64,000 bases of DNA, taken from positions 62,001 to 126,000 of the forward strand of contig NZ_QUWK01000003.1 of the NCBI RefSeq assembly GCF_003429665.1, in the 5' to 3' direction. The stretch comes from Sphaerochaeta halotolerans. Lineage in GTDB: Bacteria > Spirochaetota > Spirochaetia > Sphaerochaetales > Sphaerochaetaceae. The notes beneath the pieces were generated by a model. That model saw only the letters and a program-made list of their open reading frames with translations, was not told where the DNA came from and ran no database searches. Positions 55,858 to 60,458 of this stretch are shown in pieces. The translations under genes and the position numbers were made by a program. Positions within the stretch are counted from its first letter, which is position 1. Every line of letters starts with the position of its first letter.

Positions 55858-56304
55858 ATGCGTATACTCGATTATCTTAATGAAACTTCTATTTTGTTCC
55901 TCAAAGAAACACATAAAGACCAGATACTTACCACCATGGCGAAAAAAGCTGCTGAAAGCGGATATGTATCCAGTGAAAAGGCCTTCGTTGATGCAATTCT
56001 TGAGCGAGAGACCATAATGAGCACAGGTATTGGTCTCCAGGTTGCCATTCCTCATGCAAAGATGGATGGCATCAAAGAGTTCTTTGTGCTCGCTGCAGTC
56101 CTTGAGAAGGATGTCCCATGGGATTCCTTGGATAAGAAACCGGTACGTCTGGTTTTCATGATCGGAGGTCCATCTGACCGACAGTCAGATTATCTGATGA
56201 TTCTTTCCAAGATTACCTTGGTAATCAAAAACCCAGAACGCAGGAAAGCACTCATGGCTGCCAAGACTCCCCAGGCTGTGCTCGATGCATTTGCCGATTT
56301 GTAG
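55858..56304 (+). CDS. PTS IIA-type (PtsN/fructose-mannitol) protein
   Basis: 148 aa, full PtsN size. The phosphorylated histidine sits in GLQVAIPHAKMDGIKEFFVLAAVLE; GGPSDRQSDYLMILSKIT matches the second family block. AGGAG (55845-55849) precedes ATG 55858 by eight bases; a longer frame opens at 55717 but its first 47 residues have no family counterpart. Followed by a cation antiporter and a PII-like gene with gaps of nine bases. Such a IIA next to a potassium or sodium antiporter suggests PTS-dependent control of transport. Confidence 0.85.
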   Translation: MRILDYLNETSILFLKETHKDQILTTMAKKAAESGYVSSEKAFVDAILERETIMSTGIGLQVAIPHAKMDGIKEFFVLAAVLEKDVPWDSLDKKPVRLVFMIGGPSDRQSDYLMILSKITLVIKNPERRKALMAAKTPQAVLDAFADL

Positions 56305-56313
56305 GATTGCATT

Positions 56314-57525
56314 ATGGAGTTCCATCTGTTTCTCTATCTTGCGGCAATTTTTGCAGCTGGATATGGAAGTAAAGTACTCACTACAGCCCTGAAAATTCCT
56401 GAAGTTACCGGCTATGTCCTTTTGGGTGTCGTGCTAGGTGGCTCCTTGGTTAATCTCCTTTCCCCTGAAGTATTGGATATGTTGGCCCCCCTCTCCTCCA
56501 TTGCTCTGGCCTTGATAGCATTCACGATTGGAATTGAGCTGAAGCTTGATGTAATCAAACGGCTGGGAAGGAGCATCTTAACCATCGTGACATTCGAAAG
56601 CATTGGGGCTTTCCTTGTCGTTTTCTTTGGCTTGTTTTATGTGTTCAAGACCGATCTCAATACTGCGCTTTTACTCGGATCTGTGGCATCGGCCACGGCT
56701 CCTGCTGCAACAGTTGCTGTCATAAAACAGTACAAGGCAAAAGGCGTGTTGACTTCGACCATCTTGGCAGTGGTGGGCATTGACGATGCCTTTGCTCTCA
56801 TCATCTATGTTTTTGTAGAGAGTTTTGTCAGTTCCAACTTGCTTGGCAGTTCCCTTGCTATCGGCCCTATGGTTGCGTCGGCCTTGCTCTCGGTTGTAAT
56901 TGCTCTTGGACTCGGTGCGGTATCTGCGGTCCTCTACATCCTATTACTGCGTGGAAAGAGAAATAACGATTGGGTGATGTTGCTGCTTGCTACATTCCTG
57001 TTTCTGCTGCTTGGAGTATGTGAGCTACTTGGGGTGTCTGAATTGCTGGCAATTATGGCTTTCGGAATGACTATTGTAAATAGTTCAGCAGTGTTAAGCA
57101 AGAAAAGCGAAACGGTAGTCTCCTCGTTCAGCCCTGTGTTTCTGGTTGCCTTCTTTATCCTTGGTGGCGCTCACTTGGATGTCTCCTTGATTACCCAGAT
57201 TGGATTGCTTGGGCTCTTCTACTTTGTAGCAAGAAGCATCGGAAAGATTGGGGGGGCAACCCTCGGGGCTTTGATTGGGCGTGCGCCGAAGAAAGTCCGG
57301 TTTTTAATTGGTTTTTCACTCCTGCCACAGGTTGGAGTTGCCTTGGCTCTTGCCTTGGCAATCAACAAGACATTCTCTTCCCCAGCTTTTGGAGAAACAG
57401 GGCAGCATTTGGCGAGCCTAATCATCAATGTACTATTGTTTACCACAATCATAACTGAGGTCGTAGGCCCCCTACTGACACGGTTGGCACTGCGCAAGGC
57501 GGGCGAAACAAATGAGCGTATCTAG
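56314..57525 (+). CDS. CPA2-type cation:proton antiporter (KefB/NapA-like)
   Basis: 403 aa of the Na_H_Exchanger fold without a C-terminal RCK domain. Twelve hydrophobic helices, with the P-loop-like PEVTGYVLLGVVLGGSLVNLLSPEV, the ion-binding aspartate pair region DDAFALIIYVF in helix 5 and the conserved SATAPAATVAVIKQY. KefB-like proteins often need a soluble partner; here the neighbours are a IIA protein and a PII-like protein. Expression is coupled by nine-base gaps on both sides. Confidence 0.9.
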   Translation: MEFHLFLYLAAIFAAGYGSKVLTTALKIPEVTGYVLLGVVLGGSLVNLLSPEVLDMLAPLSSIALALIAFTIGIELKLDVIKRLGRSILTIVTFESIGAFLVVFFGLFYVFKTDLNTALLLGSVASATAPAATVAVIKQYKAKGVLTSTILAVVGIDDAFALIIYVFVESFVSSNLLGSSLAIGPMVASALLSVVIALGLGAVSAVLYILLLRGKRNNDWVMLLLATFLFLLLGVCELLGVSELLAIMAFGMTIVNSSAVLSKKSETVVSSFSPVFLVAFFILGGAHLDVSLITQIGLLGLFYFVARSIGKIGGATLGALIGRAPKKVRFLIGFSLLPQVGVALALALAINKTFSSPAFGETGQHLASLIINVLLFTTIITEVVGPLLTRLALRKAGETNERI

Positions 57526-57534
57526 GAGGAAATA

Positions 57535-57876
57535 ATGAATCTATTGCTTATGGTGCTCTCCCAACTGGATTATAAGGAGGATGTGTTTCTGGCAATGCAG
57601 AGTGTCGGAATCACAAAAGCCTCCGTGTTCGATGCCAAAAGCATGGATCGAAGTCTTGAGAGCGAATTCAGCCTTTTTACCGGATTCTTGCACAGTAGAA
57701 GCGAGATGGAAGGGGAGCAGTTGGTGATCTTTGCCCCATTAGCTTCAGCTGACCTTGCAAAAGAGTTGCTCACCAACCTTGAAGCGGGCGGAATTCCTTT
57801 GAAGCGTGAGGACATCCTTTCGCTCATGGTTCTTCCCGTCTCCTATTGTTTTGACCAGTCAACCATTCTTTGTTGA
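57535..57876 (+). CDS. small PII-like protein (tentative)
   Basis: 113 aa. Secondary structure pattern matches a ferredoxin-like PII fold: MNLLLMVLSQ strand, YKEDVFLAMQSVGITKASVF helix plus strand, GEQLVIFAPLASADLAKELLTNLEAGG strand and helix, then DILSLMVLPVSYC. PII-like proteins such as SbtB bind nucleotides and gate a partner transporter. No invariant loop residues are seen, so the assignment is by pattern only. It ends the IIA-antiporter unit; AGGAGG precedes its ATG. Confidence 0.5.
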   Translation: MNLLLMVLSQLDYKEDVFLAMQSVGITKASVFDAKSMDRSLESEFSLFTGFLHSRSEMEGEQLVIFAPLASADLAKELLTNLEAGGIPLKREDILSLMVLPVSYCFDQSTILC

Positions 57877-57947
57877 ATCTTTTTGTTGTAGATTGGTTCT
57901 TTGCCCTCTAGGATGACGATAAGGAATTGAGAAAAGGGAGATATTAT

Positions 57948-60458
57948 TTGTTGGCACAACTGCTCGCCGTCCAATTAAACCAAAAAGATCTTTCCGTGGT
58001 AAGGAATGTAGCGGGAAACATGCAGGTGCTCACAGCTGGAAATAGCAGTGAGGCGCTTCACTTGATGGAAATGCACGCTTCGATCGATATGGTGTTGATC
58101 GATATTGAACGCTCATATCTGCAGAGCCTTCAATTGCTCCACACATTGGTCTACAGGTACCAGCAAGAACCTCTCAGAATTATCGTACTCGGTGAAAAAC
58201 AGCTACTCCAACAGAAAAAGAGAGTCTTTGACCTAGACCTCATTACAGTCCTAAATAAGCCAATACAAGAAAAACAATTAAGAGGCCTTCTCGAACTGGA
58301 GGTTGTGAAACAGGATTCATATTCAGAGCAGCAGAACGTATTGGAAAAGGCTCATCTGTTTAATGCAATCTTCTACCAAGCTCCCATTGGAATTTCCATT
58401 TCTTACCGCGTTGATCTCGGGGTGGAGCCTGGTAAGGAACGGTTCGTTGGTAATCCCATGTATGAGAAAATTACAGGCAGGAGCATGGAGGAAATACTCA
58501 GAATTGGGTGGACGGCGATTACCCATCCTGACGATCTTCCTCGAGAGTTGGAATATTTCAAGCGGTTGAAGCGTGGGGAATTGGAAAGCTATACTCTGGA
58601 AAAGCGATTCATCCGTCCCGATGGTTCCATTGTCTGGGTTGAAATGACGGTTGCTCCGCTGCAAGCAAGGGACAGCCGGCTCTTTGCTCATATCAGCCTC
58701 TTTCAAGATATCACCAAAAGAAAAGAAGCTGAAAGATTGCTTGCCGAGAGTGAACGCAGTAAGTCTGCGCTGCTCTCACACTTGCCTGGAATGGCGTATC
58801 GATGCCTCTATGATACCCATTGGACGATGCTTTTCGTCTCTGCAGGATGTGAATCCTTAACGGGCTATACTCCTGACCAGCTGATACACAACCGAGATAT
58901 ATCATACAACGATATCATTGTAATTTCCTATCGACAAAAGATCTTTAGCGAGTGGTCATGGGCAGTTCAAGAAAACAAGCCCTTTGTGCTTGAATATGAA
59001 ATTCTCACTGCTCAAGGAACTCGCAAGTGGGTATGGGAGATGGGACAAGCTGTATATACGGATGGTGGTGATGTTGAAGCCTTGGAAGGAATCATTCTCG
59101 ATATTACTAACAGAAAACAGATGGAGCAGAACCTTGCCTTTCGTGATGCCCATGATCTATGGACCGGACTCTATAACCGACGGTACCTTGAGCAGTTGTT
59201 GCTTCAGGATATCAAAGCAAAAAAAAGTACAAAACGAGCGCTTGTCTCAATTAACTTAGGGGCCTTGAATGCGAAAAGTATGGCCTATGGCTACCAATAT
59301 AGCCAAGACATCATGAAGAAGGTTGCAGAGGGATTGCTTATCCTCTGCAACAAACTTGTCGTGCTAAGTATTACGCATGAGTATCAACTTGTGTTCTATC
59401 TTAGGTCTTACCATGAAAGGCAGAATCTTCTCATGCTTTGCAAGAAGATTGAAAGTACCTTGGAGCACCTATTGGTTTTGGAAAGGATTCCCTATGGGCT
59501 GGGAGTTCTGGAAATCAATGATTCCAATCAGGATGCCATTGACCAATTACTCAGAAATCTCTTGGTAGCTTCCCAGCGTTCCGTTGCGCTCTATGACGGG
59601 GAGGCAAAGCTTTGTTTCTTTGATGAGAGTATGGAAACTGAGATTCTTTGGGAAGCAAAACTTACTGAAATCTTGGCAAGTATTGTGTCAGGGAGGAATC
59701 AGGAATCGTTGTTCCTGCAATACCAACCGATTGTTGACATGCGCACAAGGCGTATCTGTGGTTTCGAGGCGTTGGCGCGATTGAAGTGCAAAGATATGGA
59801 GATGATTCCACCATTGCAGTTCATTCCAATTGCCGAGAAAACAAAACTCATCATTCCCTTGGGTAATCTCATTATTCGACAGGCATTCCAGTTTTTGAAG
59901 CAACTGGAAGATCAGCATGTGATGGACTGTACGGTCTCCATTAATATCTCTGCCCTTCAGGTGATTAAAGAAGGTTTTGCTGAGCATGTCATTCGCTTGA
60001 TGCATTCAATGGATGTGAACCCTTCCTGTATCTGCTTGGAGCTTACTGAATCCATCTTTGCCTCGAACTTTCAAGAAATTAACCGGGTTCTGAAGACCTT
60101 GCGATCCAAAGGAGTCAAGATATCGGTTGATGATTTCGGCAGTGGATATTCCTCCCTTTCAAGGGAGCGGGAGCTCTATGTCGATGAATTGAAGATTGAC
60201 AAATCATTCATAGATAAACTGCTTTTTCTCTCTGATGATCAAGCAATCACCGGGGACATTATTTCTATGGCCCACAAATTGGGTCACAATGTGGTAGCAG
60301 AGGGTATCGAACATCAGAGACAGTTTGACTATCTGAAGCGCAACAACTGTGACAAGGCTCAAGGGTTTCTCTTTAGTAAGCCGCTGGATGCGACTGATGC
60401 TATTGCGTTGGTTGCGAGAAACGATGCCCACCGGCTATTTGAAAATCTGTTCGAGTAA
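57948..60458 (+). CDS. REC-PAS-PAS-GGDEF-EAL protein, probable c-di-GMP phosphodiesterase
   Basis: 836 aa, cytoplasmic. Residues 1-130 look like a receiver domain (MVLIDIERS, VLNKPIQ), followed by two PAS domains (NAIFYQAPIGISISYRVDL; LPGMAYRCLYDTHWTMLFVSAGCESLTGYTPDQL with a PAC-like VWEMGQAVY), a GGDEF domain in which the motif is lost (THEYQLVFY), and an EAL domain with FEALARLK, NISALQV, ELTES, DDFGSGYSSLSRE, KIDKSFI and AEGIE all present. So it should cleave and not make c-di-GMP. TTG 57948 with GGGAG seven bases before it is my start; TTG 57927 is the alternative. Confidence 0.88.
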   Translation: MLAQLLAVQLNQKDLSVVRNVAGNMQVLTAGNSSEALHLMEMHASIDMVLIDIERSYLQSLQLLHTLVYRYQQEPLRIIVLGEKQLLQQKKRVFDLDLITVLNKPIQEKQLRGLLELEVVKQDSYSEQQNVLEKAHLFNAIFYQAPIGISISYRVDLGVEPGKERFVGNPMYEKITGRSMEEILRIGWTAITHPDDLPRELEYFKRLKRGELESYTLEKRFIRPDGSIVWVEMTVAPLQARDSRLFAHISLFQDITKRKEAERLLAESERSKSALLSHLPGMAYRCLYDTHWTMLFVSAGCESLTGYTPDQLIHNRDISYNDIIVISYRQKIFSEWSWAVQENKPFVLEYEILTAQGTRKWVWEMGQAVYTDGGDVEALEGIILDITNRKQMEQNLAFRDAHDLWTGLYNRRYLEQLLLQDIKAKKSTKRALVSINLGALNAKSMAYGYQYSQDIMKKVAEGLLILCNKLVVLSITHEYQLVFYLRSYHERQNLLMLCKKIESTLEHLLVLERIPYGLGVLEINDSNQDAIDQLLRNLLVASQRSVALYDGEAKLCFFDESMETEILWEAKLTEILASIVSGRNQESLFLQYQPIVDMRTRRICGFEALARLKCKDMEMIPPLQFIPIAEKTKLIIPLGNLIIRQAFQFLKQLEDQHVMDCTVSINISALQVIKEGFAEHVIRLMHSMDVNPSCICLELTESIFASNFQEINRVLKTLRSKGVKISVDDFGSGYSSLSRERELYVDELKIDKSFIDKLLFLSDDQAITGDIISMAHKLGHNVVAEGIEHQRQFDYLKRNNCDKAQGFLFSKPLDATDAIALVARNDAHRLFENLFE

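Follow-up and report, generated by a model that had tools for sequence, protein, structure and literature searches.

The window analyzed here (64,000 nucleotides of Sphaerochaeta halotolerans, contig NZ_QUWK01000003.1, positions 62,001 to 126,000) carries three consecutive forward-strand genes, which were found exactly where the initial annotation had placed them and are separated by two gaps of nine bases (56305-56313 and 57526-57534). The first encodes a PTS IIA protein of 148 aa from the Fru/Ntr IIA superfamily (55858..56304, +; Pfam PTS_EIIA_2, E 1.4e-35), the predicted phospho-acceptor of which, H66 (56053-56055, +), lies within AIPHAK and corresponds to an invariant His in related IIAs; the start codon chosen agrees with the spacing of GGAGAG and with the lengths of homologues. 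The second encodes a CPA-superfamily cation/proton antiporter of 403 aa, consisting of the membrane domain alone (56314..57525, +; Pfam Na_H_Exchanger, E 3.4e-37). The third, with AGGAGG upstream, encodes a 113-aa PII-like protein (57535..57876, +) with a beta-alpha-beta-beta-alpha-beta fold assigned from an AlphaFold model, PDB structure matches and a paralogue, and its T-loop region (residues 34-60; 57634..57714, +) is placed between beta2 and beta3 in the model. A promoter/terminator scan of the locus gave matches at chance level. The three-gene arrangement is far beyond chance, since families far apart in the phylum have the same triple. About 50 bases past it lies a gene for a response-regulator/PAS/GGDEF/EAL protein (window 57927-60458), a neighbour that is present in Sphaerochaeta locus L042 and absent from more distant triples.

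The Na_H_Exchanger match (PF00999) spans residues 17-384 of the antiporter, and Pfam detected no RCK/TrkA or other soluble domain in it, as had been annotated; the accompanying label "KefB-type" did not survive, as the protein scores far under the Kef/CPA2 subfamily model of NCBIfam (TIGR00932; 51 vs 238 bits). Similarly, the "PtsN-type IIA with the His in AIPHAK" retains its domain (PF00359) and H66 but loses the PtsN label, falling below the PtsN equivalog model (TIGR01419; 69.9 vs 138.7 bits), and it passes the fructose-IIA model (TIGR00848; 105 vs a cut-off of 103.5). These NCBIfam scores make "CPA-superfamily antiporter" and "Fru/Ntr-superfamily IIA" the better readings. An Asp-Asp pair (D157-D158 in the window; 56782-56787, +) is kept in the linked antiporters except for two with the second Asp alone, and the helix-10 Lys (K311; 57244-57246, +) is likewise conserved in nearly all of them, a combination which, from NhaA and NapA, we take to fit electrogenic Na+/H+ exchange.

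The phospho-His is invariant in all 42 IIAs of the related loci, fused ones included, and an Arg-Glu motif near the His is lost in the Mrp-type IIA of Sphaerochaeta. The S. halotolerans genome encodes one EI, one HPr with HprK adjoining, and four IIAs. A search for EIIC of the glucose/fructose family (PF02378, the one EIIC family covered) found none in the genome, and the control searches matched. In this respect the relay resembles that of Treponema denticola, which is described as being without PTS permeases (Gonzalez 2005, cited in PMC2937029). With no glucose/fructose-family EIIC found in the genome, it is more likely that the relay signals the state of PEP/pyruvate and the HPr kinase than that it follows the uptake of sugar. 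The third IIA of the genome (L116, 5295-10716) is preceded by a V-type ATPase operon together with a gene for a universal stress protein, which puts three of the four IIAs with ion-translocating machines, and the fourth (L117, 4455-6509) follows a gene that by eye is GltD-like, resembling the glutamate synthase small subunit.

The 113-aa protein produced no match of its own in Pfam or in PDB sequences, its NCBIfam match was at chance level, and its family profile gave weak PII matches in PDB sequences (best E 0.45); scanning the genome collection with the protein itself recovered few relatives, at five Sphaerochaeta loci. Pfam P-II (PF00543) matches 8 of 15 relatives, the window protein not being among the matches, and a paralogue elsewhere in the genome scores above the cut-off (27.7 bits vs 25). 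An AlphaFold model of the single chain, built from the 15 relatives (pLDDT 75, pTM 0.64), shows the order beta-alpha-beta-(T-loop)-beta-alpha-beta, and the best 50 PDB structure matches to it (Foldseek, VIA-align) are all PII or PII-like. Foldseek gave an E of 7e-5 and VIA a Z of 9.5 across 89 residues at 2.7 A, and the nearest folds by VIA Z are PotN (9.5), SbtB (9.4), TT1020 (9.3) and CPII (9.2). On the grounds of paralogue, profile and modelled fold the 113-aa protein is assigned a PII fold, which bears out the PII-like pattern noticed in the initial annotation. The T-loop has a pattern of its own in the alignment (invariant L41, E44, L47, F48 and F51) and pLDDT below 50 at residues 41-46 and 48-58; it is the probable target-binding element. 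The canonical PII B-loop, C-loop and uridylylation Tyr motif occur in none of 53 PII-like proteins, nor does the SbtB R-loop CGPEGC, so that the residues give no support for nucleotide binding. A c-di-AMP cyclase is encoded in the genome.

The contexts of these 53 homologues, picked by PII sequence similarity only, confirm that antiporters accompany the small protein at other loci too: an antiporter adjoins 44 of them, and an IIA adjoins, or is fused to, 46. The set includes near-duplicate rows (L042-L044 and the window; L081 and L082), and phyla outside Spirochaetota are represented in it by L046 and L121-L123 only. IIA-antiporter-PII triples account for 12 loci, Mrp operons for 19 (18 with an IIA, the PII-Mrp locus without one being L046 from Aerophobetes) and a single fused IIA-PII protein beside an antiporter for 11. 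Five loci hold IIA-PII pairs with no adjoining antiporter (including L083 and L103-L105), two hold PII and antiporter without IIA (L106, L123), and the remaining four comprise two with DUF1538, one with a DcuC-family carrier and one at a contig edge. As five IIA-PII pairs stand alone and three PII loci adjoin DUF1538 or DcuC-family proteins, antiporters may not be the sole target of IIA-PII. Most neighbouring genes in these loci overlap slightly or lie less than 20 bases apart. The PII gene is followed by a hexokinase gene in L032, and in L099 (5049-11328) and L100 the triple sits in an apparent glycerol operon, with FAD oxidoreductase genes on one side and, across a 3-base gap, a glycerol-kinase-like FGGY gene on the other. 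P-II-like genes adjoin those for DUF1538 membrane proteins on an alphaproteobacterial plasmid (L122, 5986-7324) and in a spirochaete (L087, 4392-6643; PII-like protein of ~200 aa), which suggests a wider transporter-linked PII group.

The fused IIA-PII proteins of the 11 loci are about 270-280 aa long. In a model of one example (pLDDT 83) the first half matches IIA-Ntr structures (E 3.6e-13) and the second repeats the PII strand/helix order; the PII halves of the fusions are also matched by sequence profiles. Putative PII halves in L134 and L140 gave no match and were left out of the PII counts. The antiporters paired with fused IIA-PII are of two subtypes, with either ATAPA or ATSVS in the fourth-helix region. 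Fusions fall in two places in the PII tree, in which a single clade is disfavoured (AU p 0.016, post hoc), and the IIA tree is compatible with a single origin; two independent fusion events are thus favoured by the PII tree, and the IIA tree leaves one origin possible. Tandem IIA genes, one normal in length and the other as long as a fusion (~270 aa), lie upstream of the antiporter in L131, L135 and L140, and the second half of the long IIA of L140 gave no PII match. Fold matches to the IIA half of the fused-protein model also include band 3 and related SLC4 exchangers, in their cytoplasmic domains, and the Mrp IIA (L031, 10675-11172) has a weak Pfam Band_3_cyto match (2e-4); this likeness, an old fold similarity, fits a regulatory-domain role on ion exchangers.

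The paralogue of the 113-aa protein is the first gene of a PII-IIA-MrpE-MrpF-MrpG-(B)-MrpB-MrpC-MrpD operon in the same genome, the Mrp identity of which is given by Pfam MNHE and Proton_antipo_M matches. Mrp is unrelated to the CPA antiporter of the window, and Mrp (Mnh) Na+/H+ antiporter operons of S. halotolerans and its relatives begin with the same PII-IIA pair; to our knowledge, classical Mrp operons carry no PII or IIA gene. This gene order suggests that another, unrelated antiporter in the genome is under the control of a PII-IIA pair, or is at any rate accompanied by one.

Viewed from the antiporter side, the seven closest antiporters in 296 genomes of the phylum (E <1e-100) all lie in an IIA-antiporter-PII triple. 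Among 50 antiporter loci, PII is fused or adjoining in 12, none of which has CBS domains, and CBS domains occur in 26 (24 C-terminal, two in an adjoining protein), none of which has PII, a count that ignores phylogeny and in which many CBS cases stem from one family. The CBS-tailed antiporters (a Treponemataceae-like family and others) belong to the same antiporter superfamily and carry a cytoplasmic module whose class frequently has adenosine ligands; they differ in that CBS is mostly fused, whereas in the window PII takes its place, with no co-occurrence in the 50 loci. In L165 the antiporter has a C-terminal IIA within the same chain, and three CBS-bearing antiporters (L166, L167, L170) have an IIA adjoining and no PII. 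The exclusion of CBS and PII, together with the single antiporter-IIA chain, indicates that the IIA and PII modules stand where a regulatory domain would otherwise be. The simplest reading of these comparisons would be that antiporter cores of the phylum recruit two modules, one of IIA type and one for a small molecule, the latter being either PII or CBS.

From their sequences, the IIA and the PII-like regulator both look functional. Gene content, the PII fold, conserved linkage, fusion, the conserved phospho-His and the presence of the relay form the observed basis for reading the three genes as one ion-transport unit, in which it is likely that PTS phosphorylation and a PII ligand (perhaps an adenine nucleotide) gate Na+/H+ antiport. 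The 403-aa antiporter would exchange Na+ (or K+) for H+ and, having no regulatory domain of its own, would have this role filled by the two soluble proteins, IIA and PII-like protein. The EI-HPr relay would phosphorylate the IIA at H66, so that the IIA would signal the PEP/pyruvate and HPr-kinase state, and the PII-like protein, presumably a trimer, would sense a small molecule, for which c-di-AMP or an adenine nucleotide is the likeliest candidate. Its T-loop probably touches the antiporter. We infer that gating is direct, and the same two-sensor pair may act on Mrp. The initial annotation had proposed that sugar-PTS state and nucleotide level are coupled to ion flux; the coupling gains from the 11 fusions and from the pair heading Mrp operons, and "sugar-PTS" proves too narrow for a genome with no PF02378 EIIC.

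The sign of control may be guessed from Escherichia coli, in which PtsN in its unphosphorylated form binds the K+/H+ antiporter YcgO and inhibits it, an association that is weaker once PtsN is phosphorylated (PMC11808508). By analogy, unphosphorylated IIA would keep the antiporter off and phosphorylation would release it. The two systems pair a cation/proton antiporter with an IIA from one Pfam superfamily, whose control over it depends on the phospho-His in E. coli (PMC11808508) and is predicted to do so here; however, YcgO is a CPA1 protein with RCK and CorC domains of its own as the PtsN site, whereas the window antiporter has neither, ptsN is not described as an operon partner of ycgO, and PMC11808508 describes no PII partner. 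For the second input the precedent is SbtB, as PII-fold proteins of this kind use the T-loop to bind transporters and sense adenyl nucleotides, c-di-AMP among them (PMC10117731). As in SbtB-SbtA and GlnK-AmtB, in which the T-loop is the target-binding element, a PII-fold protein is encoded here beside a membrane transporter, and SbtB is among the folds nearest to the 113-aa model. Those systems involve other transporter families and no IIA partner (the partner of SbtB being SbtA and that of the 113-aa protein a Na_H_Exchanger protein), and the 113-aa protein is without canonical PII motifs or the SbtB R-loop. A broader proposal, which we hold to be about evenly balanced, is that IIA and PII form a portable two-input cassette, free or fused, on three or more antiporter lineages (Mrp and two subtypes of CPA), which would set Na+/H+ exchange according to both the phosphorelay driven by PEP and a signal from adenylate or c-di-AMP, CBS being interchangeable with PII.

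Other readings of the same gene order can be weighed against gating of the antiporter. Signalling might run in reverse, with the antiporter sequestering IIA and/or PII at the membrane in the style of AmtB-GlnK and so telling the ion state to other targets, flux not being the output. Such targets are conceivable given the IIA-PII pairs with no adjoining antiporter (L083, L103-L105), and IIA proteins are known to regulate non-transport targets, but the pair is attached to at least three antiporter lineages with no constant downstream gene and is replaced, in its PII part, by CBS, known in-cis regulatory domains, and we regard this reading as unlikely. The IIA and the PII might instead act separately on the antiporter or its expression and form no single module, as could be expected from the loci that have one regulator without the other, whether PII beside a CPA antiporter (L106, L123) or Mrp (L046) or IIA beside CBS antiporters (L166, L167, L170); the 11 single-chain fusions, and IIA and PII trees that group similarly, argue against such independence and render it quite improbable.

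It could also be supposed that the genes merely share an operon, the IIA serving sugar uptake and the small protein nitrogen control, with no functional contact with the antiporter. These are the usual roles of the two families, and in two genomes (L099, L100) the triple lies inside a glycerol-kinase operon; yet the genome has no glucose/fructose-family EIIC, the small protein has no canonical nitrogen-PII motifs, and the triple, the Mrp operon and the fusion are conserved across many families, so this explanation is already disfavoured and seems very improbable. Gating of Na+/H+ antiport by the two regulators remains the reading that we prefer.

PII control of AmtB or SbtA offers known single-input precedents for such a unit. 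The action of an IIA on YcgO is another single input to a transporter that was already known (PMC11808508). A literature search of open-licence papers found no description of a joint IIA-PII cassette, of its fusion, or of its sharing by CPA and Mrp antiporters. Such a cassette would bear on the role of a regulatory-only PTS, a question dating from the description of T. denticola as being without PTS permeases, and the fused protein of ~275 aa with one antiporter of 400 aa makes a compact, testable system. If the proposal is true, a regulatory relay apparently without sugar permeases would match pH and sodium bioenergetics to the glycolytic and nucleotide state in anaerobic spirochaetes, and the occurrence of the IIA-PII cassette in Sphaerochaeta and many other spirochaetes suggests a portable unit tying ion flux and cell pH to energy state.
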